Shown here one piece after another: positions 3,025 through 20,287 of a stretch of 64,000 nucleotides of DNA. Origin of the DNA: Seonamhaeicola sp. S2-3 (lineage in GTDB: Bacteria; Bacteroidota; Bacteroidia; Flavobacteriales; Flavobacteriaceae); NCBI RefSeq assembly GCF_001971785.1, contig NZ_CP019389.1, forward strand, positions 2,925,001 to 2,989,000. Reading direction: 5' to 3'. Within the stretch, counting starts at the first letter, position 1. Each line of letters opens with the position of its first letter. Both the position numbers and the translations under genes were made by a program. The notes under the pieces were generated by a model. The model did not search any database. It was not told the origin of the DNA and was given only the letters and a program-made list of their open reading frames with translations.

Positions 3025-3441
3025 TTATTTTGATATTTCTGATAAAATCAAAAAAGTATTAGTATCACCAAATTGCATTAATTTGTCTAGTAACTTTTGT
3101 AAGCATAATTGATTTTTTACAACAACTTTTAAATGAATATTTTGATTTCCTGTAATACGATGCGCTACTGTAATTTCAGGAAATTCATGAACTTTATTAA
3201 TAACATATTTCAATTTTCCAGGAAAAACTTTTAGTAAAATAAAGGCTTCTAAATCATACCCTATTAATTTATTATTTATTTGTATATCATATTTTTTAAT
3301 AACACCTTCTTCTTCTAATTTTTGTACACGTTCTCTCACTGAAGATGGAGATAAATTTATTTTTCTTCCAAGATCTGCAAATGATAAACGGGAATTTTCT
3401 TTTAAAATATCTAATAATTTTTTATCTGTGTTGTCAACCAT
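3025..3441 (-). CDS. Lrp/AsnC family transcriptional regulator
   Basis: 138 residues, about the usual length of ~150. Residues 1-60 form the AsnC-type helix-turn-helix (LLDILKENSRLSFADLGRKI, then LSPSSVRERVQKLEEEGVI), and residues 65-138 the RAM ligand-binding/dimer domain (YDLEAFILLKVFPG, HRITGNQNIHLKVVV). Family members sense amino acids and control their transport or turnover. The gene stands divergent to the aminotransferase-RidA pair, with 189 bases between the two starts, so control of that pair and of itself is a reasonable inference. The effector amino acid is unknown. Confidence 0.9.
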   Translation of the reverse strand: MVDNTDKKLLDILKENSRLSFADLGRKINLSPSSVRERVQKLEEEGVIKKYDIQINNKLIGYDLEAFILLKVFPGKLKYVINKVHEFPEITVAHRITGNQNIHLKVVVKNQLCLQKLLDKLMQFGDTNTFLILSEISK

Positions 3442-3630
3442 TGAATCGTTATTTTTTTGTTATTTTTTTGTTTTATTAACGGTAAATATATTAAAAATAA
3501 CATTTAATCAATTTTAAAACGTTTGTTTGTGGTTGTATTTTTGAATTATTAATAATATAATCTATTTAATTGTTGAAAATACGCAATAAATTAGGTTTAG
3601 TGATATGAATTGTAAGCTAAATACAAATAA

Positions 3631-4863: not shown

Positions 4864-5288
4864 AAACAGTAAATAAAAATCCAATACCACAGGGTAAGTA
4901 TATTCCAGCTGTAAGGCATGCTAATGTTATTTATACATCGGGCATGACACCTAGAAAAGATGGTAAACTAGTTTATTCGGGGAAAATAAAAGCTACGGCA
5001 CCTGTTGAAACATATAAAGAAGCTGTTGAAATAGCAACATTAAATGCTATTAATGCAGCTGTTAACTGTTTAGAGGCTGACGAAAAAATTTCTAGGGTAT
5101 TGCAAATGAGTGTTTTTTTAAATACAGAAACAGATTTTACAATGCATTCTAAAATAGCAGATTTTGCATCAGAAATTATTATAAATAATTTAGGAATTCT
5201 ATGTATAGGAAGTCGTGCAGCAATAGGTGTGTTATCTTTACCATCTAATGCACCTGTAGAAATAACATTAGTTTGTAGTGTTAATTAA
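4860..5288 (+). CDS. RidA/YjgF family enamine/imine deaminase
   Basis: 142 residues with the RidA signature near the C-terminus: GSRAAIGVLSLPSNAPVEI, where the arginine in GSRAAIG binds the carboxylate of the substrate. RidA proteins hydrolyse reactive enamine/imine products made by PLP enzymes and so protect other PLP enzymes. Its ATG lies inside the last codons of the aminotransferase gene (ATGA overlap), so the aminotransferase is the likely source of its substrate. A role as 2-aminomuconate deaminase for the kynurenine operon 25 kb away is possible but has no support from position. Confidence 0.88.
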   Translation: MKTVNKNPIPQGKYIPAVRHANVIYTSGMTPRKDGKLVYSGKIKATAPVETYKEAVEIATLNAINAAVNCLEADEKISRVLQMSVFLNTETDFTMHSKIADFASEIIINNLGILCIGSRAAIGVLSLPSNAPVEITLVCSVN

Positions 5289-5596
5289 GAAGTGGGTATT
5301 TCGTTATAACTATAGCTTTTTTACTGACTTACATTTAATTTTAAAATAAAATTAATAAATCGTTAAGAAAACCATTGAATCCTTTTTGTTAATGTTTAAA
5401 AAAGTTGTTTCAATGAAAAAAAGTCGATTTATCCTAAAAATCAACTTTTAAATAATTATTAATAAAATTACCTTTATGGTATATAATTATCTAAACAATA
5501 ACAATTGTACTGAATTAAAAACATTATAAATAAAAAAACATTGAATTATTTGTAATTATAAGTTTTTTATTCGAGTCATCAAAAAAACAATCATCT
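5289..5596. other. Intergenic region ahead of the SusC operon
   Basis: 308 very AT-rich bases between ridA-like gene and susC-like gene. It holds one hairpin (5419-5449) and must hold the promoter of the peptidase/SusCD operon, but no clear TAnnTTTG box with a -33 TTTG at proper distance could be assigned. Confidence 0.5.
5419..5449 (+). terminator. Candidate terminator hairpin after the aminotransferase-RidA genes
   Basis: AAAAGTCGATTT (5419-5430) pairs with AAATCAACTTTT (5438-5449), one C-A mismatch, seven-base loop. The stem is AT-rich and the tail (AAATAATTATT) is not a real T-run, so termination may be weak; it could instead be an operator or a 5' UTR structure of the following operon. 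Confidence 0.4.
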
Positions 5597-8500
5597 ATGA
5601 AAACCAAACTTCATCATGTTTTAAAGAAAACATTATTAGTTACAAGTTTGTTTTTAACATTTTTTCAAAGTTATGGTCTTAAGTATGGCATAGGAGCTAT
5701 AAACAAGAACATTGATTTTTTTGAAGTAAAATGGAAAAAATCAAACTTAAAACTTCCTCAAAAAAGTATAGAGGGTAAAGTTACAGATCAAAGTAATGCA
5801 CCTTTAATAGGAGTTACCGTCATTATAAAAGGAACAAGTAAAGGAACAACTACCGATTTTGACGGTAAATTTAGATTAAACACAAAGGAAGGAGACGTGC
5901 TATTATTTTCGTATTTAGGTTATGGAGATGTAGAGTTAACAGTAGATAGTAGAATATTTTATGATGTGAAAATGAGTCCCTCGGCTGAAGAACTAGATGG
6001 AGTAGAAATATTTTCTACAGGATATCAAAAGATTAGTGAAGAACGTGCAACTGGATCTTTTGCAAAAATTAATACTAAGGTTTTAGAGCGAAAAATAGAT
6101 CAGAGTATTATTGGTAAAATTGCAGGGGAAGCTCCAGGTGTACAGTTTGATCCGTTTATTCAAGAAAAAAATAATATCGGACTTGTAATTCGTGGTAGAA
6201 GTTCTATTAATGCTACTACAGAGCCCTTAGTTGTTGTTGATGGATTTGCTATACCAGGAGGTTTTGGTACTATAAATCCTAACGACGTGGAAACTATTAC
6301 TATTTTAAAAGATGCGGCGGCAACATCTATTTGGGGAATTCGGGCTGCTAATGGTGTTATTGTAATTACCACTAAAAAAGGTGAAAATAACAGTAAATTG
6401 GCGGTAAATCTTTCTGTAAATTCCTCAGTAACTTTAAAACAGGATATTTTTGAAGCACCCTATGCCGATCCTAGCACACAAGTAGATTATCAAATAGGTT
6501 TGTTTAATTTCGAGCAGTATTCGCAACAAAGAAATCTATTTGATGGCAGCTTAAATGAATTTTCACTATATCAAACCAACGCCGTTAGAGAAACTTTGCT
6601 AAGGCTTCAAAGGGGAGATATTGATATTGCCACGGCCGACGGTAGAATAGAGGCTCTTAGAAATAATGATGGTAGAGAAGAATATTCTAGACTCTTTTTA
6701 AGACAAAAGTTGTGGAATCAATACAATTTAAGTGTGTCTAGTGGTAGCGAAAAATATAATTTTAATTCCTCACTGGTATACAATCAAAATAAAGGAGAAA
6801 TTGTAAAAGATAAGTCAGATCAATTTATTTTAAACGTCGTAGGTAATTATAAGTTTACCGATAAATTACAAGCTCGATTTTCCAGTAATATATCGCAAAC
6901 CAAAAGTGAATTTGGTATTAGTACAGGGCCTGTAGATTACTTAATAAACTATCCTGTGTTTGAGCGTATTGTGGATGACAATGGTAATTACCTACCTATG
7001 CGTGGTGGTGTAAATATTGAAAGTTCTCAACTAGCGCAAAGACAAGGTTATCCTTATCCTTGGACTTTTAATCTTAAGCAAGAGTCAGACAATATGGATA
7101 ATACTTCAACAACAACAGATATTCGTATTCAAACAGGATTAAATTACGAAATTTTAAAAGGTTTAAAAATCGATTTAAGTTACCAATATTTATGGTCGTC
7201 GTATTTTGGTCGTAACTTACTAAACGAAAATAGATTCACAACCAGAAACTTAGTAAACTACTTTGCTCAAGTAGATGAAACTGGCCAAGTCATAGAAACT
7301 CCAGTTCCCGTAGGTTCTTTGTTAGATACCTCCACAAGAAGTACTACAGATAACACTTTTAGAGGGCAATTAAATTATTCAACTAGTTTTAAGGATGGAC
7401 TTCATAATATTGATGCCATAGCTGGGTACGAGGTGCGTAAACAAATATCAGAGTTTAATAGAGATCGTAAATTTGGATACAATGACCAATCCCTAATTTT
7501 TACACAACCTAATTTTAACACCCTTTATTCTAGTCCCATTTTTGGCGGACAACGATTAATTAGTTCAAATTCGAGATTAACATATACCGAAAATAGGTTT
7601 TTATCGTACTACGTTAACGGTGCTTATAATTTTGATAAGCGTTATACCATTTCGGGGAGTATGAGGTTAGATGATACCAATCTATTTGGTGCATCCGAAG
7701 AATTTAGAAACATACCTTTATTTTCAGTAGGTTTAAAATGGAATATCACTAAAGAAAATTTCTTTAATTCTACATTTTTTAATAATCTTAATTTAAGAGC
7801 AACCTTTGGTTCTGGTGGAAATGTAGATAGAAATACATCGCCATTTTTAGTAGCCAGACAAGGTCGAGATCAGGGAAGTTTTTTAAACAACTACCTAACT
7901 ATTTCAAACCCTCCTAACCCAACATTACGTCTAGAGAAAACAAAGACCCTTAATTTAGGATTAGATTTTTCTATGGCAAACAGTAGAATTTATGGAAGTG
8001 TAGAATTTTATAATAGAAACAGTGAAGATTTATTGGCAAGACGCAATATAAGTCCAACCTATGGTTTATCTTCTTCATTCTTAAATGTTGCCGAACTATA
8101 CAACAGAGGTATAGATATAGATTTAGGTTTAAGAATTATAGATACCAAAGATTTTAAATTTGATACAAGAATACTTTACAGTCAAAATAAAAATGAAATA
8201 ACTAGTATAGACGAAAGTAATCCTGGTGAAATATTCCTTTTTACACAATATGACGCTAACTCTTTTGTAGTTGGAGACCCGGTTGATAATTTTTATAGCT
8301 TTAGATATGCAGGTTTAGATGAACAAGGGAATCCATCTTTCTTTAATGAAGATAATGATATTATAGAAGTGGGTGGAGATATTGGTGCTATAGAGGCTTT
8401 AAAAAGTGAAGGTTCTAGATCGCCTACACGTACTGGCTCATTAACCAACACATTTACTTATAAAAATTTATCATTACGAGTGCTTACAGTGTATTCTGGT

Positions 8501-8899
8501 GGAAATAGATTTCGATTTGAAAGAAATTACGACCCTAGATTTTTTCAAAACAATGTGTATAGCGATTATGTAAGCAGATGGCAACAACCTGGAGACGAAT
8601 TACTTACCGATGTGCCTAGACTTACATCGCCAAATGAAACGCAAACACCTCTTTATTTGTATCTAAACGAATCAGATAGAAATACCGATGATGCTTCATA
8701 CATTCGTTTATCTCAAGTTAATTTATCCTACCAGTTTCCTGAAACTCTAACTAAGAAATTATCTATGAATAGTTTTACGGTAAGCTTGCAAGCAGATAAT
8801 CTTAAAGTTTGGAATTTTAATAAATGGGATGTCGATCCTGTAAGTCGAACCATACCCATTCCTCCAACCTTTACACTTAACTTAACGACAACATTTTAA
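5597..8899 (+). CDS. SusC/RagA family TonB-linked outer membrane transporter
   Basis: 1100 residues. Order of parts: signal peptide, CarboxypepD_reg-like domain (about 55-130, IEGKVTDQSNAPLIGVTVII), the segment GVEIFSTGYQKISEERATGS that precedes the plug, plug domain (about 150-265, ending GIRAANGVIVITTKKG), then the 22-strand beta-barrel ending in an aromatic residue (TFTLNLTTTF). It forms the barrel of a SusCD 'pedal-bin' importer that moves large nutrients into the periplasm using TonB energy. The SusD partner follows after 11 bases. With peptidases downstream, peptides are the likely cargo, as in the RagAB peptide importer. This is inference from context. No anti-sigma/ECF pair is next to it. 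Confidence 0.93.
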   Translation: MKTKLHHVLKKTLLVTSLFLTFFQSYGLKYGIGAINKNIDFFEVKWKKSNLKLPQKSIEGKVTDQSNAPLIGVTVIIKGTSKGTTTDFDGKFRLNTKEGDVLLFSYLGYGDVELTVDSRIFYDVKMSPSAEELDGVEIFSTGYQKISEERATGSFAKINTKVLERKIDQSIIGKIAGEAPGVQFDPFIQEKNNIGLVIRGRSSINATTEPLVVVDGFAIPGGFGTINPNDVETITILKDAAATSIWGIRAANGVIVITTKKGENNSKLAVNLSVNSSVTLKQDIFEAPYADPSTQVDYQIGLFNFEQYSQQRNLFDGSLNEFSLYQTNAVRETLLRLQRGDIDIATADGRIEALRNNDGREEYSRLFLRQKLWNQYNLSVSSGSEKYNFNSSLVYNQNKGEIVKDKSDQFILNVVGNYKFTDKLQARFSSNISQTKSEFGISTGPVDYLINYPVFERIVDDNGNYLPMRGGVNIESSQLAQRQGYPYPWTFNLKQESDNMDNTSTTTDIRIQTGLNYEILKGLKIDLSYQYLWSSYFGRNLLNENRFTTRNLVNYFAQVDETGQVIETPVPVGSLLDTSTRSTTDNTFRGQLNYSTSFKDGLHNIDAIAGYEVRKQISEFNRDRKFGYNDQSLIFTQPNFNTLYSSPIFGGQRLISSNSRLTYTENRFLSYYVNGAYNFDKRYTISGSMRLDDTNLFGASEEFRNIPLFSVGLKWNITKENFFNSTFFNNLNLRATFGSGGNVDRNTSPFLVARQGRDQGSFLNNYLTISNPPNPTLRLEKTKTLNLGLDFSMANSRIYGSVEFYNRNSEDLLARRNISPTYGLSSSFLNVAELYNRGIDIDLGLRIIDTKDFKFDTRILYSQNKNEITSIDESNPGEIFLFTQYDANSFVVGDPVDNFYSFRYAGLDEQGNPSFFNEDNDIIEVGGDIGAIEALKSEGSRSPTRTGSLTNTFTYKNLSLRVLTVYSGGNRFRFERNYDPRFFQNNVYSDYVSRWQQPGDELLTDVPRLTSPNETQTPLYLYLNESDRNTDDASYIRLSQVNLSYQFPETLTKKLSMNSFTVSLQADNLKVWNFNKWDVDPVSRTIPIPPTFTLNLTTTF

Positions 8900-8910
8900 T
8901 ATCCAGACTT

Positions 8911-10323
8911 ATGAAAACTACAAAATATATCATTATTATATTAGTAACGTTCGTATTAACCGGGTGTACTAGAGACAATTTCTTGGATTTTCAACCCAAA
9001 GGAAAAGTTATACCGTCTAAAATAGAAGAATTTAGAGCGCTATTAGATCAAGTAGAACCAGATCCAAACGTAAACTTTACACAGGGGTTTGGTACACATC
9101 ATGATTTTACCATTATAGCAAGCGATAATTATTTATTAACAGAACAAGCACGAGCCAGTTTTGGTATTAGTCCAGAAGAAATTAATCTGTATTTATTTAA
9201 AGAACAAATTTCTACAGAAAATGGAGACGATAATAACTGGATTAGATATTACAATCAAATTTACGTTGCCAATGTGGTTCTAGAAGGATTAAAAACGGTT
9301 GAAAATGGCACGCCAGAAGCTATAGCCGAAGTAAGAGCAGACGCATCATTACAACGCGCTTTTGCTTATTTTAATTTGGTAAACATTTATAGTGTGCATT
9401 ACAATCCTGAAACCGCAGATACTGATTTAGGGGTGCCTATTAGAGATGGAATAGAATTGGAAGGTGCAGATTTTACAAGAGCCTCAGTTGCCGAAGTGTA
9501 TAACCTTATTCTTAACGATATTAATAATAATATAGAGGCTCTGCCAGATTTACAACCAGCAAATTTAAGTTTTAGACCCTCTAAAGCTGGAGCTTATGCG
9601 TTTTTAGCTCGTGTTTTAATTTACCAAGCTAAATATGAAGAAGCTCTTGAAGCTGCTAATAAAGGCTTAGCTTTAAAAAATAGTTTGAGAGATATTAATA
9701 ATGACCCAGCAGATCCAAGAGATGCCAATGTGTTAGCATATCCTTTGGCCGTTCAAGACGAGCAATTAATTTGGTTTAAAGATTCCGGAGGATTTACTTT
9801 AGTAACCACACCAGAATTTTATGGTTTATATGATGATAACGACCAAAGAAAAAAATGGTTTGCCGATGCCAGAACCTATTTCTTTGCAGAGATAGACAAC
9901 CCTGTACTTGTTGCCCATAGAGCTAATAATAACACCAATGTGTCTTTAACAACTGCAGATTTGTATCTAATGCGTGCAGAATGTTATGCCAGATTGGGTA
10001 ATATAGAACTAGCGAATAACGATTTAAACACACTAAGGGTAAATCGTTTTAAAACTGGAACCTATGTTCCTGTTAACATAACAGATCAAGACGATTTAAT
10101 CGCCTTTGTAAAAGATGAAATTAGAAGAGAGAAAGCCATGAGTACCTTAAGAATTTTTGATATTAAACGTTATAATCGTTTTGATAACGACAACATAACT
10201 GTTACTCATAGTTTTAATGGAGAAACAGTTTCTATAACACCAAATAGTCTCAATTGGGCATTACCCATTGCAAACAATTACATTCTTGCAAATCCAGAAA
10301 TAGAACAAAATCCAAGACAGTAG
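8911..10323 (+). CDS. SusD/RagB family surface lipoprotein
   Basis: 470 residues. The signal peptide ends in the lipobox LTGC (Cys19), so the protein is lipid-anchored; in this family it sits outside the cell as lid of the SusC barrel. SusD features include the N-terminal NFLDFQPKG, TPR-like helices in the middle (AYAFLARVLIYQAKYEEALEAANKGL) and the C-terminal stretch with DLYLMRAECYARLG and IRREKAMSTLRIFDIKRYNRF. It is shorter than many sugar-binding SusDs (500-600 residues), near the size of RagB-like peptide binders. It lies 11 bases after susC-like gene and 23 bases before the first TSP3 lipoprotein. Confidence 0.9.
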   Translation: MKTTKYIIIILVTFVLTGCTRDNFLDFQPKGKVIPSKIEEFRALLDQVEPDPNVNFTQGFGTHHDFTIIASDNYLLTEQARASFGISPEEINLYLFKEQISTENGDDNNWIRYYNQIYVANVVLEGLKTVENGTPEAIAEVRADASLQRAFAYFNLVNIYSVHYNPETADTDLGVPIRDGIELEGADFTRASVAEVYNLILNDINNNIEALPDLQPANLSFRPSKAGAYAFLARVLIYQAKYEEALEAANKGLALKNSLRDINNDPADPRDANVLAYPLAVQDEQLIWFKDSGGFTLVTTPEFYGLYDDNDQRKKWFADARTYFFAEIDNPVLVAHRANNNTNVSLTTADLYLMRAECYARLGNIELANNDLNTLRVNRFKTGTYVPVNITDQDDLIAFVKDEIRREKAMSTLRIFDIKRYNRFDNDNITVTHSFNGETVSITPNSLNWALPIANNYILANPEIEQNPRQ

Positions 10324-10346
10324 TCTCAAATGTAAAAAATATAATT

Positions 10347-11537
10347 ATGAAAACAATTTTTAAATCTATAATAGGTGTATTTCTCTTATTAATTAGCTTT
10401 TCTTGTGATGAGTCTAAAGATAATGTCTCTGGGATATTAATAAATACTGAAGATTTTACAATTGAAGCACCAATTGTTGTAAAAAAACGAGATACCCTAG
10501 GCTTTTTAAAAGGAAGCTCTAATAAAGGCGAGGTTACCTTCTCTTTAATTTCTCAAACACCAGAAAATAGTGTTGTACTGGGGTTAAGGTATGGAGAAAT
10601 AATAGTTGAAAGTCCAGAGTTTTTTAATTCAGATATTACAGACGAAGTTAATCTAGTTATTGAAGTTAAAAAACAACAAGAAACAAAAATATCCAACGTA
10701 ACCATTCGAAGAAATTTAAACGATCCAGACGGCGATGGTGTTGAAAGTAGTATGGATAGTGATCCCAATAGCCCTTGCTTACCTGTACAAGATGTAAATT
10801 ATACTGGGTACAATTCTTACAATAGTATTTGGCGTGAGGCCGATTGCGACCAAGATGGTATTTCTAATATAGATGAATTAACTAATGGTACTAATCCGTA
10901 TTTTGATGAATCGTCCATAGGAGATACCGATGGTGATGGACTTAAGGATGATGTAGATTCAGATCCAAATAACCCTTGCTTACCAGAACAATTTATTGGG
11001 TATCAAGACTTCGATGCCGAGAACGACATTTGGGCAGCAGCAGATTGTAATGGTAATGGTATTTCTAATGGAGATGAAGTTGCCGCTGGAAGATCGCCTT
11101 ATCCTTTTCCAGATATACCTTGTAATGACATATTTAACTTCGAGTTAGAAAATTACGCTAGAGAGTTAAGAACAGTAGATTCTAACAACGGAGAAGGCGT
11201 TACTATTGGGGTTGTTGGAGAACAATGTGGTACTATATTCTTTACCGGAGGAGGTATCTTTAACCAAGGCTGTTTTAATGATGATGTACGTATACCTTTC
11301 TATTTTGAACCTTCAGATCAAACATCATCTAATGGTAGAGTGTTTGTAGAACTCACAGAGTATTCATGTTTATCAGAAGACAGAATGTCTAGTAGAAACT
11401 TTACGGTAGAAGGTTTAGGAACCTATGCAGGTGCTTCTAGAACCGTAGAGTTAACATATATCATCACACAACTAGATGATGATATCCCTGATGATGAAAG
11501 AGTAACTACCGGAACACTAATTATCAGGCCGTTATAG
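10347..11537 (+). CDS. Lipoprotein with thrombospondin type 3 repeats
   Basis: 396 residues when started at the ATG at 10347; an in-frame start at 10254 would lie inside the SusD gene and bury the signal peptide, so it was rejected. The lipobox is SFSC with an acidic Cys-Asp-Glu start, the export signal type of flavobacterial surface lipoproteins. Residues ~120-260 carry calcium-binding TSP3 repeats (DPDGDGV, DTDGDGL, DCDQDGISNIDELTNGTNPY) with regularly placed cysteines (NSPCLP, NNPCLP). The last ~130 residues form a beta-rich domain, also found twice in the next gene. Place after SusD matches SusE/SusF-type accessory lipoproteins. Function unknown; surface binding of the substrate is a guess. 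Confidence 0.8.
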   Translation: MKTIFKSIIGVFLLLISFSCDESKDNVSGILINTEDFTIEAPIVVKKRDTLGFLKGSSNKGEVTFSLISQTPENSVVLGLRYGEIIVESPEFFNSDITDEVNLVIEVKKQQETKISNVTIRRNLNDPDGDGVESSMDSDPNSPCLPVQDVNYTGYNSYNSIWREADCDQDGISNIDELTNGTNPYFDESSIGDTDGDGLKDDVDSDPNNPCLPEQFIGYQDFDAENDIWAAADCNGNGISNGDEVAAGRSPYPFPDIPCNDIFNFELENYARELRTVDSNNGEGVTIGVVGEQCGTIFFTGGGIFNQGCFNDDVRIPFYFEPSDQTSSNGRVFVELTEYSCLSEDRMSSRNFTVEGLGTYAGASRTVELTYIITQLDDDIPDDERVTTGTLIIRPL

Positions 11538-11587
11538 CAGTGAAATTAACAGATTTTACACAATATCAACATAATAAAGCAAGAATT

Positions 11588-12859
11588 ATGAAATATAAAA
11601 TAAATATAAAATGGTCACTTTTGTTAGTAGTTTTTACATTGGTTTTTAATTATTCATGCGTCGAAAATAATGAAGAATTTATTAGCGAAGCAATGGATAC
11701 TGATGGCGATGGCGTGCTTAACAGTTTAGACGAATTCCCTGATGATCCGTGTTTACCCGTTAAAGATGGTACATATACTGATTTCAATGTTTTTAATGCG
11801 GTTTGGCAAAATGCAGATTGTGATGGTGATGGGGTCTCAAATGCAGATGAGTTTGAAGATAAAACTCGCAACCCCTACGTAAACGAGGATACCGATACCG
11901 ATGGCGATGGCGTGCCAGATTTTTTAGATGAAGCACCACAAAACCCTTGCATGCCTGAGCAAGATGAAGGTTATATTGGTTTTGATTCTGATAATGAAAT
12001 ATGGTCTAACTCAGATTGTGACGACGATGGTGTCTCTAATATAGATGAGTATATGAATGGAACAGACCCATACAAAGGCTGTAATTTAGATTTCGATTTT
12101 AGTAATTTTGAAGGCGAACTACAAGCTCGAGACTCTAATAATGGAGATAATATTATAGTAGCTTCTTTATTAGATAGTTGTAACGAAATATTAATAAGCG
12201 GAGACTTTTTAAATTTAGGTTGTACCAATGAAAATATTGAGTTTATAGTGTTCTTAGATCCTTTTGTAGAAGGCGGAAATGAAGGGAATGCCCTTATCGA
12301 AAATGCTACTTTTAATTGTGTTAATGAAGCAGGTGATACCATAGAATATACATTTAATGCTTCAGGTTTTTTTAGTGGTAATGATGGGTTTATGGAATTT
12401 TTTGGCTATACCCTAACCGGAGATGGAGAAACCATTTCAGGAAATTTATTTATAGATCAAATTTCAAATGGTGGCGGAAACGAACGGGATAGATGTAGTT
12501 TTGAAGGCGAGTATAATAGTATTGTAAATATTGATGGAAACGAGAGCTTTGGGGTTGGTATATTTACCCAAAATCCAGAAAATTGTTATGAATATATCCT
12601 TTCTGGAGACTTCTTAAACTTAGGTTGTAATAATGATTTTGAATTAGGAGTATTCTTTGGCGAAGAAGCAGGAGGCTCTGAAGTTATTATAGCCGAAAAA
12701 ACCTTTACCTGCGAATCGGATAGTGGAACCGTTGAATATACCTTTAGAGGCTTTGGAAGTTATTCTAATTCAGAAGGTTTTATAGAATTATCAGAATTTA
12801 CATTAAAAACTTCAGATGGTACCGAAAAGAATGGTACTATATTTTTTGAAGCTTTATAA
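11588..12859 (+). CDS. Lipoprotein with TSP3 repeats and a duplicated C-terminal domain
   Basis: 423 residues from the ATG at 11588; the upstream start at 11540 puts 16 polar residues before the signal peptide and was rejected. Lipobox YSC followed by VENNEE. TSP3 repeats (DTDGDGVLNSLDEFPDDPCLP, spaced DCDGDGVSNADE, DTDGDGVPDF) run to about residue 165. Then come two copies of one ~115-residue domain, each with SGDFLNLGC, a second cysteine in TFNC/TFTC, and YTF before a G-F-x-E strand. The preceding lipoprotein has one divergent copy. The two genes look like products of duplication followed by domain gain. No function is known to me for this domain. Confidence 0.8.
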   Translation: MKYKINIKWSLLLVVFTLVFNYSCVENNEEFISEAMDTDGDGVLNSLDEFPDDPCLPVKDGTYTDFNVFNAVWQNADCDGDGVSNADEFEDKTRNPYVNEDTDTDGDGVPDFLDEAPQNPCMPEQDEGYIGFDSDNEIWSNSDCDDDGVSNIDEYMNGTDPYKGCNLDFDFSNFEGELQARDSNNGDNIIVASLLDSCNEILISGDFLNLGCTNENIEFIVFLDPFVEGGNEGNALIENATFNCVNEAGDTIEYTFNASGFFSGNDGFMEFFGYTLTGDGETISGNLFIDQISNGGGNERDRCSFEGEYNSIVNIDGNESFGVGIFTQNPENCYEYILSGDFLNLGCNNDFELGVFFGEEAGGSEVIIAEKTFTCESDSGTVEYTFRGFGSYSNSEGFIELSEFTLKTSDGTEKNGTIFFEAL

Positions 12860-12890
12860 ATAAAAAAATAATTAATAAAGTATTGAAAGA

Positions 12891-13688
12891 ATGGAAAGAT
12901 ATGTTGTCATGATCTCTTTATTGCTGCTTGTATCGAGTTGTAGAAATGTTCAACCAGACAATTCGTTGCAAAATGATAGGTCTAAAGTTGCTCAAAGAAT
13001 AAAGGACGAAATAAAACCTTTATTTAGAACCTCGATTACGGCAACAGAAATTGATTTTATTAAAGAAACCGATAATGATGCCTTTCTAAATCTTAAGTAC
13101 ATTGGTCAACAAACAAAAGAAATGCCAGGGGGACTTTCAGATGAAGGTTTAATGGATAATGGCACCTATGTGTTTAAAGCGCTTTTTTCCGATGATAAAT
13201 CTGTTGAAATTTGGTTACACAGTAGCTTTGGCAATAAGGAAAAAGCCAAAGCATACGCCGATAAATTAACAAGCAGACTGGGTAAATTACCATCATTTAT
13301 GCGTAATACTTTAAACCATGTCGTAATTCATACTGGCAATCATACAGCTTTTGCAGAAGATGAGGGTGGTTTTTTTGTGCTGTATTCCGATAATATGGAT
13401 ACCAGAATACGCAATAATGATCTAGAAGAAACCGTTTTTCATGAAACATGCCATGTCACATTTGATTTGAAATACGCAAAAAGTAAAGGGTGGAAAGCAA
13501 TTCAAGCAGCCGATAAATCATTTATAACAGAATATGCCAAAAGCAAACCTAATCAAGAAGACATTGCGGAAACGGCATTATTTGTCTACACCATGAAAAC
13601 ATATCCAAATAGATTATCAAAGGAAATAGAACAATGGGTGAAAACTAATATTCCTAACAGATATGAATTTTTAGAAAAGTTCTTTTAG
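12891..13688 (+). CDS. Putative HExxH metallopeptidase lipoprotein (paralogue 1)
   Basis: 265 residues with lipobox VSSC (Cys17). The only catalytic-looking motif is HETCH (residues 184-188) in ETVFHETCHVTFD, which fits a gluzincin-type zinc site; a conserved downstream acidic stretch (QEDIAETALF) could give the third ligand. The C-terminus (NIPNRYEFLEKFF) is almost identical to that of the next gene, with which it aligns over nearly full length. I do not recognise it as a named peptidase family. Position between surface lipoproteins and two certain metalloproteases supports proteolysis as its role. Activity is inferred from the motif only. Confidence 0.65.
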   Translation: MERYVVMISLLLLVSSCRNVQPDNSLQNDRSKVAQRIKDEIKPLFRTSITATEIDFIKETDNDAFLNLKYIGQQTKEMPGGLSDEGLMDNGTYVFKALFSDDKSVEIWLHSSFGNKEKAKAYADKLTSRLGKLPSFMRNTLNHVVIHTGNHTAFAEDEGGFFVLYSDNMDTRIRNNDLEETVFHETCHVTFDLKYAKSKGWKAIQAADKSFITEYAKSKPNQEDIAETALFVYTMKTYPNRLSKEIEQWVKTNIPNRYEFLEKFF

Positions 13689-13713
13689 AAAAACAGAATA
13701 AAAAAATTAAATT

Positions 13714-14535
13714 ATGAAATTAAAAAGTATAGCTAGAGTTTTTTTTCTGTTGATGTTGTTGGTATTTACTAATTGCACCTCAGACAAAAAACCATTTATT
13801 AGAGAAGATCTTAAAGATCAAGAAAATGGTAGTGATGACGAGAATACCAATGAGGGAGATAATACACCTTTATTTGAGTTTTCGGTATCTGGTACTGGTA
13901 TCGATTATATTAAGTCTACAGATCCAGACACATTTTTAGGTATTGAGTATTTAGGACAGTTTGCTAAAGAAATACCAGGAGTAGAACCCACACTAGACTC
14001 TAACGCTTATGTTTTTGAAGCGTCGTTTACTGATGGTAAAAAAATTGGTATTTGGTGTCGTAGTAATTTTGAAACTCTGCAACGCGCCACTGAGTATGCT
14101 AATAAATTAACAGATAAATTAGGTAAGTTACCTGTTTTTATGAGAGATGAATTAAGCCATGTAGCTGTGTTTTCTGGCGCAAGTAGAGCTTCTGCTGAAC
14201 CCGATGGTAAATTTTTCTTTATCTCTGATAAGAGAATAGATGAAAGACTAGCGGATAATCAACTCGAAGAAACGGTTTTTCATGAAACAACACATGTTTA
14301 TTTTGAAAAAAGGTATGGAACAAGTACAACCTGGAAAAATGCCCAAAATACAGATGGTATTTTTGTAACCAAATATGCAGAGGATAATCCAAACGTAGAA
14401 GACATACCTGAAACCGCCATATTTGTATACACCATGGTTAAATATCCAGGACGATTATCTCAAAATATTGAAAATTGGGTAAAAGAGAATATACCTAATC
14501 GGTATGAATTTTTAGAGACATTTTTTGAAGATTAA
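13714..14535 (+). CDS. Putative HExxH metallopeptidase lipoprotein (paralogue 2)
   Basis: 273 residues, tandem paralogue of the gene 25 bases upstream. Lipobox TNC followed by an acidic, low-complexity linker (about residues 35-52, ENGSDDENTNEGDN) that probably works as spacer from the membrane. The core shares GTGIDYIKSTDPDTFLGIEY with the first paralogue's EIDFIKETDNDAF region, LGKLPVFMRDEL, and the zinc motif HETTH (residues 190-194), then VEDIPETAIFVYTM. The second Cys of the HETCH motif in paralogue 1 is Thr here, so that cysteine is not essential. Predicted surface-exposed peptidase of an unnamed family. Confidence 0.65.
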   Translation: MKLKSIARVFFLLMLLVFTNCTSDKKPFIREDLKDQENGSDDENTNEGDNTPLFEFSVSGTGIDYIKSTDPDTFLGIEYLGQFAKEIPGVEPTLDSNAYVFEASFTDGKKIGIWCRSNFETLQRATEYANKLTDKLGKLPVFMRDELSHVAVFSGASRASAEPDGKFFFISDKRIDERLADNQLEETVFHETTHVYFEKRYGTSTTWKNAQNTDGIFVTKYAEDNPNVEDIPETAIFVYTMVKYPGRLSQNIENWVKENIPNRYEFLETFFED

Positions 14536-14598
14536 AATAAAGAGTGTAGAGTTTGCTATTAATTTCGGTGGTATAAAAAAATGTAAAAAGTTTAAAAC

Positions 14599-15498
14599 AT
14601 GGGAATAACAAAAGCTATACATGCACTTGTGTTTTTTTTCTCGCTAATTTCTAGCGGAGAAAAAAAAGACGGGGTTACAGTTCAACAAGATTTAAAGGCA
14701 GAAAATGAAATTTCTAATAACACTATTAGAGTTCTCTCAAATGATACCTTAAGAATACCCGTTGTGCATCATATATCTAGAGATAATAATGGTAATAATG
14801 CGGCTGTTTCAGAACAACGTATAAAAAAAATAATGGGAGATATAAATAAAAATTATAAATCAGGAAAAATTCAATTTTTTACTAAAGCCATTAAATTTAT
14901 TGATAGTACACCATGGAATACCCAATTTGTAAAGCAAGATGATTTTACTGAAAGTAAAGTTTTAGCTTCATTTGAAGATGAAAATGCGTTAAATATATTT
15001 TATTTTATCAAATTATTAAATAGACGCCATGGTGAAATTATTGGAGAGTTGGGGGCAACAGCATTATTCCCAAATCAAGGTAATAACATAAAATTAAGTG
15101 CTACTTCTGTAGAAATTGAAAATACGGCAACAGCAACACACGAAATAGGGCATTATTTAGGACTTTATCATATAGATGATGATTTTAAAGATAGCCAAGG
15201 AAGAATTGAGTTAGTCAACGGGTCTAATTGTGCAGAAGCAGGTGATAAAATTTGTGACACACCTGCTTCGCCAGGCCTTAAGGAGTCTAACATGAAAGAT
15301 TGTGTTTATATTGGAACAGAAACAGACCCTATTGGTGAAAAATACCATCCAGATACGTTTAACTTTATGACGTCATCGGGGAGAACCAGAGCAGATGCTG
15401 CTGGTTTATGCAGAAGACATTTTAGCCCAGGACAAATAGAAAAAATGATTTCAGTATTAAATAATGAAAGGGCGTATTTAATAACAAAAGAAGAATAG
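14599..15498 (+). CDS. M43 (pappalysin/cytophagalysin-like) zinc metalloprotease
   Basis: 299 residues. The metzincin zinc site HEIGHYLGLYH (residues 181-191, HExxHxxGxxH) is complete, followed by the disulphide-type region CAEAGDKICDTPASPG and the Met-turn area NFMTSSGRTRADAAGLCR, all typical for M43B proteins of Bacteroidota. The N-terminus is a hydrophobic segment without lipobox cysteine, so it looks secreted to the periplasm or outside rather than lipid-anchored. Most M43 enzymes of this group are larger and carry a type IX secretion tail; none is present, since the protein ends soon after the catalytic domain. It sits in the middle of the peptidase operon. Confidence 0.85.
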   Translation: MGITKAIHALVFFFSLISSGEKKDGVTVQQDLKAENEISNNTIRVLSNDTLRIPVVHHISRDNNGNNAAVSEQRIKKIMGDINKNYKSGKIQFFTKAIKFIDSTPWNTQFVKQDDFTESKVLASFEDENALNIFYFIKLLNRRHGEIIGELGATALFPNQGNNIKLSATSVEIENTATATHEIGHYLGLYHIDDDFKDSQGRIELVNGSNCAEAGDKICDTPASPGLKESNMKDCVYIGTETDPIGEKYHPDTFNFMTSSGRTRADAAGLCRRHFSPGQIEKMISVLNNERAYLITKEE

Positions 15499-15560
15499 TG
15501 TTTAAAAAAATCTAACTAATAAATTTAATTTTAACAACTCTACATCTTATCAATATCTCA

Positions 15561-17501
15561 ATGAGAATATTATTTAGTAATATAATTTTTTTCTTTTTAG
15601 CTCTATGTGTTTACAGTCAAGAGGCTAAGCCATTATATATGCCACGAGAATTTCAAGAAGCCTACAAAAACAAAACACGAGTGTTTAATGGAGATGTAGG
15701 AGAGAACTATTGGCAAAACTCTAGTGTTTATGTTATAGAAGCAGAAATAGTTCCCGGTACCTGGAAAATTTACGGAAAACAAACCATATCATACACAAAT
15801 AATAGTCCAGATAGTTTGTCTGAAATTGTTATTAAAATGTACCCTAATCATTATAAAAAAGGAGGCGTACGCGCTAATAAAATTCCTCTTGAAAATTTAA
15901 CCAATGGCATGGTTATTTCAAACTTAAAGGTTAATGATGAGGTGGTTAATTTAGGTATAGACGCATCGGTAAGTAATTTGGCTCACGCTACCAAAAAAAA
16001 GAATCCAAGTAGCAATATATCTGTGAGTTATAATTCCACCTTTTTAACATTAGAATTTAATAATAAACCCATACCTCCAAATTCTACTACAAAATTGTCT
16101 ATGGATTGGGAAACAGAAATGCCTTTAATTTATGTGAATAAAATAGGAGCTTATGATAAAGAAAGCGCTTTTATGGGCTATTGGTACCCTCAAATAGCAG
16201 TTTATGATGATATTGATGGTTGGGATAAAAATGAATATACAGGCGCCCAAGAATGTTATACCGATTTTGGCAATTTTAATGTAAAAATTAAAGTGCCAAA
16301 AGGAAATTATGTATTTGCAACTGGAGAATTATTAAATGCGGAAGCGGTATTGAGTCCGCAAGAATATGAAGCCTATATTTTATCAAAAACCAGCCCAGAT
16401 AGTACCCGTATTTTAAATGCTAATACTAAAGATGAAATTGGAAATTCAAAATCTACATGGCATTTTAAAGCAAAACAAGTTAGAGATTTTGGGTTTGGAG
16501 TGTCTAACAATTTTAATTGGCTAGCAAATACCACATTAATTGAAGATAAAAAGGTGTCTTCCAATATTGTTTATAGTTATAAAGACGAAAAAAACCTTAG
16601 AGATCTTTTAAATACTCAACAAAAAAGTATTGAATATTTATCTAATGAATTACCGGGTGTTCCTTACCCATACCAAAGCTTTACATCATTTATAGGGGTG
16701 CCAGAATTTGATGGTATGGAATTTCCAATGATGGCAAATAACGGATTCTCAAAAAGAGAAATAAGTAATAACCTGATGACGTTTCATGAATTAGCACATA
16801 CTTATTTACCACATTGGGTAGGGATAAACGAGGTAAAATATTCTTGGATGGAAGAAGGTTGGGCTACTTTTTTAACTTTTAAATTTTGCCAAAACTTTTA
16901 TAAGGATACCGCATTTGAAAATTATGAATTACAACGCGCCATAAAAAGTTATAAAAGAAGTGCGGGCAAGCAATGGGAACCCCCTTTGTTTAGTCCGTCA
17001 AATTATATGGTGGTTAGAAATATGCACTTTCAGCAATCGTATCGTAAACCTGCTTTTATGTATTTAGCTTTAGAACATCTATTGGGAGAGGAGCGTTTTA
17101 AAAGGTGTTTTAAAACCTATTTAAACAGATGGAAAGAAAAACACCCAACGCCTTTTGATTTTATGTTCACTTTTAATGATGTAAGTGGTGAAAATTTAAA
17201 TTGGTTTTGGAAAAAGTGGGTTTTTGAATATGGTTATGCCGATTTGGGGTTAAAAAAAATAGAAGGTTCAAAAGTTGTATTAGAAAATGTAGGCGGCTTG
17301 CCTGTACCCGTGTCTTTAAAATTAACTTATGCCAATAATAAAACCGCTATCATTAATAAAACACCAGAAATTTGGTCATCAGGAAAGTCTAGCGTATTTA
17401 TAGAGATTGTAAATGTGGAAGGTTTGATTTCTGTAGAGTTAATTTCAGATTCATTTCCAGATGTTAATACCACCAATAACTTAATAGAAATAAAAAAATA
17501 G
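15561..17501 (+). CDS. M1 family aminopeptidase
   Basis: 646 residues with signal peptide (cut likely after VYSQ). Zinc site HELAH (409-413) with the third ligand Glu432, i.e. the HExxH-x18-E spacing of M1 gluzincins; the substrate-binding loop before it is EFDGMEFPMMANN, a variant of the usual GAMEN exopeptidase motif (here GMEFPM). C-terminal part SGENLNWFWKKWVFEYGYADLGL is typical for flavobacterial M1 proteins. It should trim N-terminal residues of imported peptides in the periplasm. It lies 62 bases after the M43 gene and 80 before a symporter gene, in the same operon-like run. Confidence 0.88.
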   Translation: MRILFSNIIFFFLALCVYSQEAKPLYMPREFQEAYKNKTRVFNGDVGENYWQNSSVYVIEAEIVPGTWKIYGKQTISYTNNSPDSLSEIVIKMYPNHYKKGGVRANKIPLENLTNGMVISNLKVNDEVVNLGIDASVSNLAHATKKKNPSSNISVSYNSTFLTLEFNNKPIPPNSTTKLSMDWETEMPLIYVNKIGAYDKESAFMGYWYPQIAVYDDIDGWDKNEYTGAQECYTDFGNFNVKIKVPKGNYVFATGELLNAEAVLSPQEYEAYILSKTSPDSTRILNANTKDEIGNSKSTWHFKAKQVRDFGFGVSNNFNWLANTTLIEDKKVSSNIVYSYKDEKNLRDLLNTQQKSIEYLSNELPGVPYPYQSFTSFIGVPEFDGMEFPMMANNGFSKREISNNLMTFHELAHTYLPHWVGINEVKYSWMEEGWATFLTFKFCQNFYKDTAFENYELQRAIKSYKRSAGKQWEPPLFSPSNYMVVRNMHFQQSYRKPAFMYLALEHLLGEERFKRCFKTYLNRWKEKHPTPFDFMFTFNDVSGENLNWFWKKWVFEYGYADLGLKKIEGSKVVLENVGGLPVPVSLKLTYANNKTAIINKTPEIWSSGKSSVFIEIVNVEGLISVELISDSFPDVNTTNNLIEIKK

Positions 17502-17581
17502 AGCGTTTTTATGGTGTTATTACGTCTTTATCAAAAGTAAAAAAAGACCTGCTTTAAAAACAAATCCATACTACGTATCAT

Positions 17582-18904
17582 ATGAAAAAACTAGAATTGC
17601 ATTGGCAAATATTAATTGGGATGATTGCTGGAATCCTATTCGGTTTCGGGATGACTCAAGTGGCGTGGGGGCAAGAATTTGTTTTAGACTGGATACAGCC
17701 TATTGGGAATATTTTTGTGAAACTTTTAAAATTAATAGCCATTCCTCTCATATTGGCGTCCTTAGTAAAAGGTGTTTCCGATTTAAAAGATATCTCTAAG
17801 TTTAAAAGTATTGGACTTCGTACCATAATAATTTATACCATAACTACATTGGTAGCAATTAGCATTGGCTTGTTAATAGTAAATATAGCGCAGCCTGGAA
17901 AGGGAATTCCGAAAGAAACTATAGATAAACTAATAGAAGCATATTCTAGTGATAGCGGTGTAACCTCCAAATTAGCAGAGGCCTCTATGCAGAAAGAAAG
18001 AGGACCATTACATTTTTTAGAAGACATTGTGCCAGATAATGCTATTTTTGCTATGAGTGATAATGGCTTAATGTTACAGGTTATCTTTTTTACTATTTTC
18101 TTAGGAATCTCCATTTTACTTATAGGGGAGGAAAAAGGAAAACCTTTAAAAAACTTTTTCGATTCTTTAAATGAAGCCGTTTTAAAAATGGTCGATTTAA
18201 TTATGCTAACAGCCCCAATAGCGGTATTTGCGTTACTTGCAAATGTTGTTGTGTCGTCTAGCGATCCAGATTTGTTGATAGCGCTGTTAAAATACGCGGG
18301 TGTGGTTTTCTTAGGGCTTTCATTAATGATTGTTTTTTATTGTATTATGATATCTTTATTTACAGGTTATAGTCCGGTAAAATTTTTATCAAAGTTAAGC
18401 CCAGCACAGTTATTAGCTTTTTCAACAAGTTCTAGTGCAGCAACGCTTCCAGTAACTATGGAGCGAGTTGAAGAACATATTGGAGTAGATGCCGAGGTTT
18501 CAAGTTTTGTTTTACCTGTTGGTGCTACGGTTAACATGGACGGTACAAGTTTATATCAAGGTGTAGCCGCTGTATTTATTTCACAGGCATTGGGTTTTGA
18601 TTTAACATTTGCAGATCAATTAACCATTGTGTTTACTGCTTTATTAGCGTCTATAGGCTCTGCTGCTGTTCCTGGTGCTGGTATGGTGATGCTGGTAATT
18701 GTTTTGGAAGCTATAGGTTTTCCTTCGGATAAATTAGCTATTGGTTTAGCTTTAATTTTTGCCGTAGATCGTCCGTTAGATATGTGTCGTACTGTAGTTA
18801 ATGTAACTGGGGATGCCACGGTGTCTATGTTAGTGGCTAAATCTGTAGGGAAATTGGGTAAACCAAAAATTAGAAATTGGGATGACGCATTAAAAAATAA
18901 ATAA
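17582..18904 (+). CDS. Dicarboxylate/amino acid:cation symporter (DAACS family)
   Basis: 440 residues with eight membrane segments expected of the GltP/Glt(Ph) fold. Diagnostic parts: the serine-rich hairpin tip FSTSSSAATLPVTMERV, the NMDGTSLYQG motif of TM7, and DRPLDMCRTVVNVTGDA in TM8, where the Asp/Arg/Asn residues bind substrate amino and carboxyl groups and cations. Family members bring glutamate, aspartate, other small neutral amino acids or C4-dicarboxylates across the inner membrane with Na+ or H+. As the last gene of the peptidase operon it would take up amino acids released in the periplasm; this link is inference. Confidence 0.9.
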   Translation: MKKLELHWQILIGMIAGILFGFGMTQVAWGQEFVLDWIQPIGNIFVKLLKLIAIPLILASLVKGVSDLKDISKFKSIGLRTIIIYTITTLVAISIGLLIVNIAQPGKGIPKETIDKLIEAYSSDSGVTSKLAEASMQKERGPLHFLEDIVPDNAIFAMSDNGLMLQVIFFTIFLGISILLIGEEKGKPLKNFFDSLNEAVLKMVDLIMLTAPIAVFALLANVVVSSSDPDLLIALLKYAGVVFLGLSLMIVFYCIMISLFTGYSPVKFLSKLSPAQLLAFSTSSSAATLPVTMERVEEHIGVDAEVSSFVLPVGATVNMDGTSLYQGVAAVFISQALGFDLTFADQLTIVFTALLASIGSAAVPGAGMVMLVIVLEAIGFPSDKLAIGLALIFAVDRPLDMCRTVVNVTGDATVSMLVAKSVGKLGKPKIRNWDDALKNK

Positions 18905-19452
18905 TATACCCAATGCAATGCAGTACACTTTTCAGTTTGAAGTGAAAGTTGAAGATACTACTGAAAATGATTCTAAGACTGTATCTTTAAGGTATCCTAA
19001 AAAGGGGAATTCTACATAGTTTTTCCAAATCCGGCTCCAGCGTTATTGACTAATACATCTATTTTTCCATATTTTTCTATAATTGTCTTAACGACTGATT
19101 TTATTGAATCTAATTTTGTTACATTTAAAGAGAGTATTTCTATAGTAAGATTTTTAACCTTCTTCTTTGCTTTTTTTCGTTATAAATAGGAGACGCTTGT
19201 AATAGGTACACGAAAGATATATTTTTTATTAAAAGAAGACTTTCAATCACAAGTCACATAATAGGTAGAGATGTCCTATTTGATTATTTACGCTCAGCAT
19301 CCTTATTTGTTAAATCAAAGAAGAGTTACACAAAAATAACCAACTCTAAGCATTGGCTTTAAAATCTTTTCTTCTTGATTCATTTTAACTAATTTTAATA
19401 TTACTAATTTATTTAAAATTGTCAGATTAAATCTTAACTATTACAATTTATT
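18905..19452. other. Intergenic stretch with degraded gene fragments
   Basis: 548 bases with no intact gene. It contains a short-chain dehydrogenase fragment on the minus strand (19012-19181). A 33-codon open frame at 18918-19019 on the plus strand (begins MQYTFQFEVKVEDTTEN) overlaps its end and is not recognised. The rest is AT-rich without clear signals. It looks like an erosion site between two conserved blocks. Confidence 0.5.
19012..19181 (-). pseudogene. Short-chain dehydrogenase/reductase fragment
   Basis: The minus strand encodes about 55 residues ending IIEKYGKIDVLVNNAGAG and FGKTM before a TAG at 19012-19014. The NNAG motif after a KYGKIDVLVNN strand-helix is the hallmark of classical SDR proteins, where it follows the cofactor fold. 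The N-terminal TGxxxGIG nucleotide site and the catalytic YxxxK are missing, and an in-frame TAA closes the frame just upstream. This is therefore the central piece of a lost ~250-residue gene. Confidence 0.75.
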
Positions 19453-20166
19453 TTAGGACAATTCAAAGTTATTTAGTTCTGTGCCAGGTTCAATTTCATA
19501 AGGAGGTTCGTTTACCTTAAAAATTCTTGCTGTTAGTTTTCCTTTTAAAACAATAGAATCGTTTTTTACATGTAACCAACTACCTTCTCTTAAGCCAACA
19601 ACAGGAGGAGTGTTAAAATAATGAAACTCTTTTATCCTAGTTTCTCGAGTTTCTCCCATGTGTTTACTATTGCTATCTGGGTCTAAATAATGTGGGTTAA
19701 TATTAAAAGGAACTAATTTTAAAGCATCAAAACTTGGCGGATATACAATAGGCATATCGTTAGTTGTTTTAATAGTTAATCCACAAATATTACTGCCCGC
19801 ACTAGTGCCTAAATAAGGTGTGCCATTATTTACAGCCTTTTGTAAAGCATTAATTAAATTATTTTTATAAAGCTTATTAGTTAAAACAAAGGTATTGCCG
19901 CCACCTACAAAAATACCTTTAGCTTGTTTTACAGCTTCAGCGGGGTTATCATATGTGTGAATACCTTTTACTTCCTTGTTTATTTTTTGAAAGGCATTTT
20001 GAGCTGTTTTTGTGTAATCATCATGAGAAATACCACTTGGTCTTGCATATGGGATAAATAAAATTTCTTCAGTATCTTTAAAGAAAATGGCTAGTTCATC
20101 TAAAATATATTCTAAGTAACTACTGCCGTGAATGGTTGAGGTACTAGCAATAAGAATGTTTTTCAT
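19453..20166 (-). CDS. pepE: Peptidase E (alpha-aspartyl dipeptidase), S51 family
   Basis: 237 residues, the normal PepE length. Nucleophile Ser122 in GTSAGSN, the GGGNTF loop (88-93) and a His-containing segment NINPHYLD are the S51 markers. The enzyme splits dipeptides with N-terminal aspartate in the cytoplasm. No signal peptide. It is transcribed opposite to its neighbours and shares no operon, but its function fits with the peptide-handling genes on both sides. Confidence 0.9.
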   Translation of the reverse strand: MKNILIASTSTIHGSSYLEYILDELAIFFKDTEEILFIPYARPSGISHDDYTKTAQNAFQKINKEVKGIHTYDNPAEAVKQAKGIFVGGGNTFVLTNKLYKNNLINALQKAVNNGTPYLGTSAGSNICGLTIKTTNDMPIVYPPSFDALKLVPFNINPHYLDPDSNSKHMGETRETRIKEFHYFNTPPVVGLREGSWLHVKNDSIVLKGKLTARIFKVNEPPYEIEPGTELNNFELS

Positions 20167-20287
20167 TTGTTTTATAAAATTAAGTGTTTAGTAAAACTAG
20201 CTATTTCTATGATTTAACAAAAGTTTAGAACCATTTTTAAATATAATTAAGATAATAAACCGAACTTTATAATTCAAACCAAACCTT

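Follow-up and report, generated by a model that had tools for sequence, protein, structure and literature searches.

A candidate laterally transferred peptide-utilisation unit built around a SusCD pair in Seonamhaeicola sp. S2-3

Introduction

Pairs of a SusC-type transporter and a SusD-type lipoprotein (SusCD) are widely regarded as the hallmark of polysaccharide loci. Excerpts of PMC10132118 cite two such pairs, RagAB of Porphyromonas gingivalis and BT2263-2264 of Bacteroides thetaiotaomicron, as oligopeptide systems, and describe a Flavobacterium collinsii locus (TRV642_0198-0209) in which SusCD is joined by five peptidases (S9, S37, M24, M43) and for which the authors predicted oligopeptide uptake. 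According to excerpts of two further papers, single SusC genes adjoin peptidases in a Muricauda bin (PMC7029141), and 12 of the 19 SusCD operons of Z. profunda adjoin glycosyl hydrolases or peptidases (PMC2864250). Here we describe a twelve-gene block in a 64,000-nucleotide stretch of Seonamhaeicola sp. S2-3 (NZ_CP019389.1, positions 2,925,001-2,989,000 of the forward strand; "the window", whose coordinates are used throughout). SusCD loci with peptidases are already described; new here are the amino-acid module beside the pair and a family of HExxH lipoproteins, itself undescribed. A literature search found no published account of the twelve-gene block.

We consider it fairly probable that the block is a laterally transferred peptide-utilisation unit, probably of two transcripts and with one Lrp-type regulator, whose products would act stepwise. 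Peptide uptake is the best supported reading of the genes, because four metallopeptidase-type genes lie in the SusCD operon, because an Asp/Glu-type symporter goes with them and their order is conserved in other genera, and because more distant SusCD relatives adjoin peptidases in 7 of 11 neighbourhoods. If true, protein use would be packaged and exchanged like glycan use, in a self-contained, transferable SusCD unit, and the block offers a defined case on which substrate can be tested, beginning with aspartyl peptides.

Results

The twelve-gene block

A preliminary description of this DNA had proposed a nine-gene locus, from SusC to a symporter, that cuts proteins at the cell surface, imports and trims the peptides, and takes up the amino acids. 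Re-reading of the open reading frames (ORFs) and domain scans agreed with its nine genes, all on the plus strand, in family and in position. SusC/RagA (5597-8899) matches TIGR04056 (549.8 bits, cut-off 368.25), TIGR04057 (56 bits, cut-off 46.2) and Plug, and SusD/RagB (8911-10323; PF14322, PF07980), a lipoprotein with its lipobox cysteine at residue 19, has a SusD_RagB domain of 56.1 bits (cut-off 23.1), so that the two form a RagA/B-type pair. Then follow the lipoproteins TSP3a (10347-11537) and TSP3b (11588-12859), the HExxH lipoprotein HEa (12891-13688) and its paralogue HEb (13714-14535; 47% identity), an M43 (pappalysin-type) metalloprotease (14599-15498; PF05572 33 bits, cut-off 23, motif HEIGHYLGLYH), an M1-family metallopeptidase with a signal-peptide-like N-terminus (15561-17501; PF01433 63.4 bits, cut-off 27.7, zinc site HExxH-x18-E) and a DAACS/SDF symporter (17582-18904; PF00375 416 bits), the last gene of the block. 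The gaps between the nine genes are 11, 23, 50, 31, 25, 63, 62, and 80 bases. No terminator-like site lies in any of them, as had been stated; in 4000-21000 there are seven such sites against 8.0 (standard deviation 3.0) in shuffled sequence, hence no excess, and the four on the plus strand are all intragenic, at 5851 (SusC), 11902 and 12816 (TSP3b), and 13882 (HEb).

Two of the family names hold in part. The DxDGDG/DCDxDG repeats are plain in both TSP3 proteins, but TSP3_bac matches only the first, below its cut-off (E 0.0039); the HExxH motif and a lipobox are present in both HE proteins, but neither passes any Pfam or NCBIfam cut-off. The absence of glycoside hydrolases and sulfatases was upheld, with no carbohydrate-active enzyme or sulfatase family matched among the nine proteins; domain scans found no carbohydrate-active enzyme among all twelve block genes either, and the block therefore lacks the gene content of a polysaccharide utilisation locus. 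Its content, M43 and M1 matches that exceed their thresholds plus two HExxH proteins and no carbohydrate-active enzyme, is that of a peptide-importing SusCD locus.

The extent of nine genes, however, was too narrow. The unit has twelve, adding before SusC a divergent Lrp/AsnC-type regulator at the left block end (3025-3441, minus strand; HTH_24, AsnC_trans_reg; 96% amino-acid identity in Algibacter pacificus), a pyridoxal phosphate (PLP) aminotransferase of the PRK06207 type (AAT; 3631-4863, plus strand; 642 bits, cut-off 464) and a RidA-family protein that overlaps AAT by four bases (4860-5288, plus strand; Ribonuc_L-PSP 41.7 bits, cut-off 27.3). The locus is more than a chance row of genes, because the order recurs in other genera and all twelve genes are open, with ratios of nonsynonymous to synonymous divergence (dN/dS) of 0.04-0.43 against A. 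pacificus. It is one of many TonB-linked loci in this genome, which has 49 Plug-domain matches.

Transcription and regulation

The region upstream of SusC (5289-5596, plus strand) was aligned for six genomes, and the six regions share conserved stretches ending in TAnnTTTA. The flavobacterial promoter box is TAnnTTTG, and the box at 5469 is close to it, suggesting a promoter. Given this conserved promoter-like box before SusC, AAT-RidA and the nine-gene run are probably two transcripts. The divergent region between Lrp and AAT (3442-3630) shares AATTAATC or close forms with its counterparts in an alignment of six such intergenics, and this box is a possible Lrp site.

Such an arrangement would also suit an AAT-RidA-Lrp module that is independent and merely travels with the SusCD-peptidase operon, an account that we find quite unlikely. 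The 308-base gap with its own promoter-like box separates module and SusC; Lrp-AAT-RidA occurs without SusCD in Labilibacter and in genome G335, AAT-RidA in G376, and AAT without RidA in G004, G052, and G263. Yet the module lies upstream of SusC in all six block copies in which that side is visible (this genome, A. pacificus, Croceitalea, Hyunsoonleella ulvae, H. pacifica, and an uncultured Algibacter), and at E 1e-100 AAT was found in just 5 of 199 family genomes, three of them block carriers, and in 5 of 395 phylum genomes.

Recurrence in other genomes

Scanning 84,980 genomes with a sequence pattern located 35 HE loci. Apart from minor losses and relocations, the gene order is found again in Croceitalea, Hyunsoonleella and other Algibacter: block carriers are Croceitalea, H. 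ulvae, H. pacifica, the uncultured Algibacter and A. pectinivorans, and in part a Cellulophaga metagenome-assembled genome. SusC or SusD together with TSP3 genes of the block's kind is found in seven of the 35 loci (L058-L062, L065, L077), and AAT and RidA stand upstream of SusC in L058-L062, while L065 and L077 end before that side. The SDF symporter is present in L058, L062, and L065, and is not visible in L077. M43 is dispensable to the block: H. ulvae has two copies, the uncultured Algibacter (L061) only a broken remnant.

The HE tree separates one HEa group from one HEb group, the single HE of Croceitalea lying on the HEa side; the HE of A. pectinivorans, located after SDF, falls outside the HEa group. 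In Labilibacter, Lrp-AAT-RidA-HE is not accompanied by SusCD and the HE gene is interrupted by a stop; the HE family occurs also in Rhodobacteraceae, Saprospiraceae, and one planctomycete. Related small genes lie directly 3' of HE in L067 (10967-11377), L068 (9105-9518), and L069 (10826-11236), the one that was scanned belonging to the glyoxalase superfamily. Similar-looking secreted proteins, sharing PPxGRxAIVADGNSPDPDD and without Pfam match, are encoded beside AAT-RidA-HE in Labilibacter (L075, 6768-7619) and beside the block in the uncultured Algibacter (L061, 13965-14840). A link of HE to hydroxyproline or hydroxylysine through DHDPS-type, aldehyde dehydrogenase and APH-aminotransferase neighbours was considered and dropped, the models being too unspecific.

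Lateral transfer of the block

Positions 3019-18914 form one alignment of 94.1% DNA identity with A. pacificus H164 (G153), with sharp ends 6 bases past the Lrp stop and 10 bases past the symporter stop; in the 20 kb read there is no other collinear match on either side, and flank DNA matches in that genome have 65-82% identity. Synonymous divergence (dS) of the twelve block genes ranges from 0.058 (SDF) to 0.652 (Lrp), without inner stops, that of nine nearby ORF pairs (two ORFs share one partner) from 1.31 to 2.78, near saturation. Since dS in the block is far below that of the flanks, the lineages had split before they came to share the block. Within it, dS is about 0.06 for SusC, M1, and SDF and 0.45-0.65 for Lrp, AAT, and TSP3a, a mosaic which suggests more than one exchange. 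At E 1e-5 HEa was found in 8 of the 199 family genomes, each belonging to a genus other than Seonamhaeicola; among the seven genomes of the genus only our own has it, and it is missing from all six congeners searched. The sharply bounded shared block, its low dS and the absence of this HExxH gene from the congeners together indicate transfer, perhaps repeated, and the block appears to have moved between genera as a package.

A simple insertion at an empty site was ruled out, as the site is rearranged: the right flank, from the S51 gene PepE onwards, matches all six congeners, and in the three with ORFs listed (L049-L051) PepE adjoins genes that are located at 3.72 Mb here. No repeats were obvious at the block edges by reading, a search aimed at integrases or end repeats not having been made. 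PepE itself (19453-20166; 305.6 bits, cut-off 156) was rejected as a member of the unit, being genus core and outside the shared block, although it may help the unit's function. Between symporter and PepE, 18915-19450 holds short coding-like fragments, one short-chain dehydrogenase-like by eye, and looks decayed. Further right, an M1-type peptidase gene (22541-24846) is split into overlapping frames (22541-23350 and 23236-24846) by a frameshift or sequencing error; its partner in G153 and G176 is a single ORF of 760-773 amino acids. On the left, a short sequence that contains a hairpin and a run of T (2449-2574) and has no Rfam match is repeated at three other sites of the genome and in three congeners. 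The window holds no tRNA, and positions 1-24000 no Rfam match.

The HExxH lipoprotein family

H184, E185, and H188 are invariant in 43 aligned HE sequences, and E223, D224, and E227 are kept in at least 90% of these rows, E227, the candidate third glutamate of the site, lying 39 residues after the second histidine. No credible solved relative was found by sequence. TIGR04549 (LP_HExxH_w_tonB, threshold 75 bits) gave 14.4 bits for HEa and no match for HEb, which places neither in that family. The predicted model of HEa (mean predicted local distance difference test, pLDDT, 87.9; confident after residue 40) has Zmp1 (2n6j) as its best Foldseek match, at E 7.1e-3 and probability 1.00, with PPEP-1 (6r5b, E 0.03, probability 0.97) at rank 9 among M1 aminopeptidases. 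On the strength of this PPEP-1/Zmp1-like predicted fold, the HE proteins are likely gluzincin-type peptidases.

TSP3 lipoproteins and sidedness

The AlphaFold2 model of TSP3a (pLDDT 83.8) has a cadherin-like domain (Foldseek, E 7.5e-5), two TSP3-type spacers, and an eight-strand C-terminal domain with a weak match to hoefavidin (E 1e-3); by alignment, TSP3b has TSP3 spacers and two copies of the C-terminal domain. In position and architecture both are like the additional surface-binding lipoproteins that glycan loci encode, and they may likewise bind a ligand.

According to the excerpts of PMC5080379, the stretch behind the lipid cysteine that signals export is acidic (C-X-K-(D/E)2, SDDFE). 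The residues after the lipobox are acidic in TSP3a (CDESKDN, CNESDDS) and TSP3b (CVENNEE), and intermediate in HEb (CTSDKKP, CTTDKDV). In HEa, arginine or lysine directly follows the cysteine in six of seven copies (the exception being A. pectinivorans), in Croceitalea with glutamate next (CKERG), and HEa has no acidic export signal. The two HExxH lipoproteins may for this reason face different sides; TSP3a and TSP3b would be outside, HEa periplasmic. When the N-terminus of M43 is compared with relatives, the lipobox cysteine is missing from the copies of this genome and A. pacificus but present in five others.

The amino-acid module and its likely substrate

AAT matches PDB entry 3nra at E 2.1e-151; canavanine-gamma-lyase was a lead to its identity, which we do not claim. 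Lrp adjoins AAT, or the gene preceding AAT, in Croceitalea, H. pacifica, the uncultured Algibacter, Labilibacter, and G335. In L102 (8899-14104), another aminotransferase and a gamma-glutamyltranspeptidase come after Lrp-AAT-RidA. AAT was also found in 28 plasmid records, of which five regions were read. Three have AAT-RidA downstream of genes for an amino-acid ABC importer and a dehydratase; in one, AAT stands with dehydratase, aspartate dehydrogenase-type and hydantoinase genes, RidA not being listed; in one, AAT-RidA adjoins polyamine importer and sarcosine oxidase genes. Two plasmid dehydratases were scanned, and nearest to them is threo-3-hydroxyaspartate ammonia-lyase, below cut-off (Martelella 331.5 bits, cut-off 452).

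The symporter has LDMCRTVVNVTGD in transmembrane helix 8 against LDMARTTVNVTGD in the aspartate transporter 9bgz, which places it in the Asp/Glu type of DAACS, and the motif LDMxRTxVNVTGD is common to it and the solved aspartate transporter. In H. pacifica and the uncultured Algibacter, a secreted cyanophycinase-like S51 gene of 536-538 amino acids lies between Lrp and AAT, 10 bases before AAT (L107 9036-10652; L108 2727-4337, minus strand); it was found in these two of the eight carrier genomes searched and is absent from the other six. It matches solved cyanophycinases (7uqv, E 1.8e-16), but differs in scoring below the cut-off of TIGR02069 (113 bits against 126.6). S51 enzymes act at aspartyl residues. 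Symporter, S51 gene and plasmid dehydratases together point moderately to an aspartate-like amino acid.

More distant SusCD relatives

At E 1e-40 SusD has matches in 17 of the 199 family genomes; in a tree of 19 SusDs the eight from the block cluster together (support 100/100). Beyond the block we read 11 neighbourhoods and scanned 20 chosen neighbours rather than every gene. Peptidases stand beside seven of the 11 relatives: M16 in L021, L022, L026, L028, and L029, a DUF4953 metzincin in L027, and S9-like hydrolases in L029 and L030, which the esterase model BD-FAE also matches with lower scores; L020, L023, L024, and L025 have no peptidase among the neighbours scanned. TSP3a-like lipoproteins lie near the pair in L020-L024 and L028, and pairs of a small gene and one of 320-400 amino acids before SusC look, by size and order alone, like extracytoplasmic function (ECF) sigma/anti-sigma pairs. 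Thioredoxin-like genes occur in L025, L026, L028, L029, and L030, with DsbD also in L029 and L030. The loci with SusCD, thioredoxin-like and M16/S9-like peptidase genes (L029 8339-16732, L030 8660-14175, L026 11387-15765, and L028) perhaps serve import and reduction of disulfide-bearing peptides.

SusCD could also import a non-peptide such as a siderophore or cofactor, the peptidases being maturation or housekeeping enzymes. In its favour, the substrate of SusCD is not readable from sequence, and siderophore peptides can contain hydroxyaspartate and other acidic amino acids. Against it, one operon holds four peptidase-type genes, the relatives have M16, metzincin or S9-like genes, and none of the twelve is an iron gene; we consider this reading very improbable.

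Glycan surroundings

The preliminary description had named as evidence against itself any SusCD relatives beside carbohydrate enzymes instead of peptidases. No glycoside hydrolase or sulfatase is among the 20 chosen neighbours of the distant relatives; glycan genes do, however, flank the intact block, with its peptidases, in three hosts, and this is one of several points that weigh against peptide use. Two GH92 genes and one GH94 gene flank it in A. pacificus; in H. pacifica GH5, GH2, and CBM6-bearing genes stand to its left and a second SusC and GH3 to its right; in the uncultured Algibacter it is flanked by a sulfatase and a 3-keto-disaccharide hydrolase-type gene. Block loci L059-L061 (H. 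ulvae, H. pacifica, and the uncultured Algibacter) have no symporter; in 27 of the 35 HE loci, some of them on short contigs, the DNA examined contains no SusCD and no AAT-RidA; two of the five plasmid regions are without an amino-acid ABC importer; the hoefavidin match of the TSP3a barrel is weak; and the PPEP match of HEa is modest (E 7.1e-3; TM score 0.51 by target, 0.39 by query).

The glycan genes around the block, though outside the shared stretch, keep a glycoprotein or proteoglycan under consideration as the true substrate: peptidases would strip the protein while neighbouring glycan loci use the sugars. Besides these flanks, H. ulvae, H. pacifica, and the uncultured Algibacter each have another SusC-like gene after the block, and the Lrp-AAT-RidA-HE group of Labilibacter adjoins a rhamnosidase-type gene. 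The glycan families nevertheless differ from host to host, no glycan gene falls within the stretch that A. pacificus has in common with this genome, and inside the block there is no glycan enzyme; we judge such a substrate unlikely.

Discussion

Peptide utilisation, as first proposed, keeps its footing in the peptidases of the operon, the symporter, the conserved order, and the peptidases of the relatives; corrected are the extent of the locus, its history of transfer, the constancy of symporter and M43, and the sidedness of the HE proteins. The analysis establishes which genes the block holds and in what order, its recurrence in several genera, its transfer, the catalytic motifs and the predicted folds; we infer the substrate, sidedness, promoter, regulation, and the direction of each step in the following scheme. 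The first transcript (AAT-RidA) would degrade an amino acid, the PLP enzyme converting it and RidA hydrolysing the imine or enamine by-product. The second would start from its own promoter before SusC. At the surface, TSP3a and TSP3b would hold ligand-binding domains off the membrane's outer face on calcium-binding spacers while HEb and M43 make endo-cuts; SusD would close over the peptides and SusC import them with TonB energy; HEa and M1 would shorten them in the periplasm; and the SDF symporter, where present, would carry acidic amino acids (Asp/Glu) through the inner membrane.

A bolder version, which we think rather unlikely as a whole, would make the block a mobile unit that serves the use of aspartate-rich peptides (perhaps of cyanophycin type or carrying hydroxyaspartate) and that spreads and recombines among marine Flavobacteriaceae. 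In it, HE would be a new PPEP-like endopeptidase family, some carriers would add a secreted cyanophycinase-like enzyme, the symporter would take up the freed aspartate-like amino acid, and AAT would be a PLP lyase, not a plain transaminase, with RidA clearing the enamine product.

Comparison with known systems

Several parts of the block have separate counterparts. The AAT-RidA operons of Rhizobiales and Variovorax plasmids are alike in having an AAT of 59-62% identity with RidA next to it, and differ in being fed by an amino-acid ABC importer, with a HAD hydrolase and a dehydratase. The Pro-Pro endopeptidase Zmp1/PPEP-1 of Clostridioides difficile is the nearest fold to HEa and shares the HExxH site, but identity is only 15-16% and HEa is a lipoprotein. 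Among SusCD loci, L021, L022, L026, and L028-L030 resemble the block in SusC (29-42% identity), SusD (30-48%), and adjacent peptidases, and differ by ECF sigma/anti-sigma-like genes upstream, a longer SusC, and other peptidases. With F. collinsii TRV642_0198-0209, as far as the excerpts of that paper go, only M43 is in common, HExxH lipoproteins, a TSP3 pair, and AAT-RidA being unmentioned in them. RagAB and BT2263-2264, on the same partial account, share with the block a SusC and SusD pair reported to import oligopeptides; to this pair the block operon adds TSP3 lipoproteins, four peptidase-type genes, and a symporter, with AAT, RidA, and Lrp alongside.

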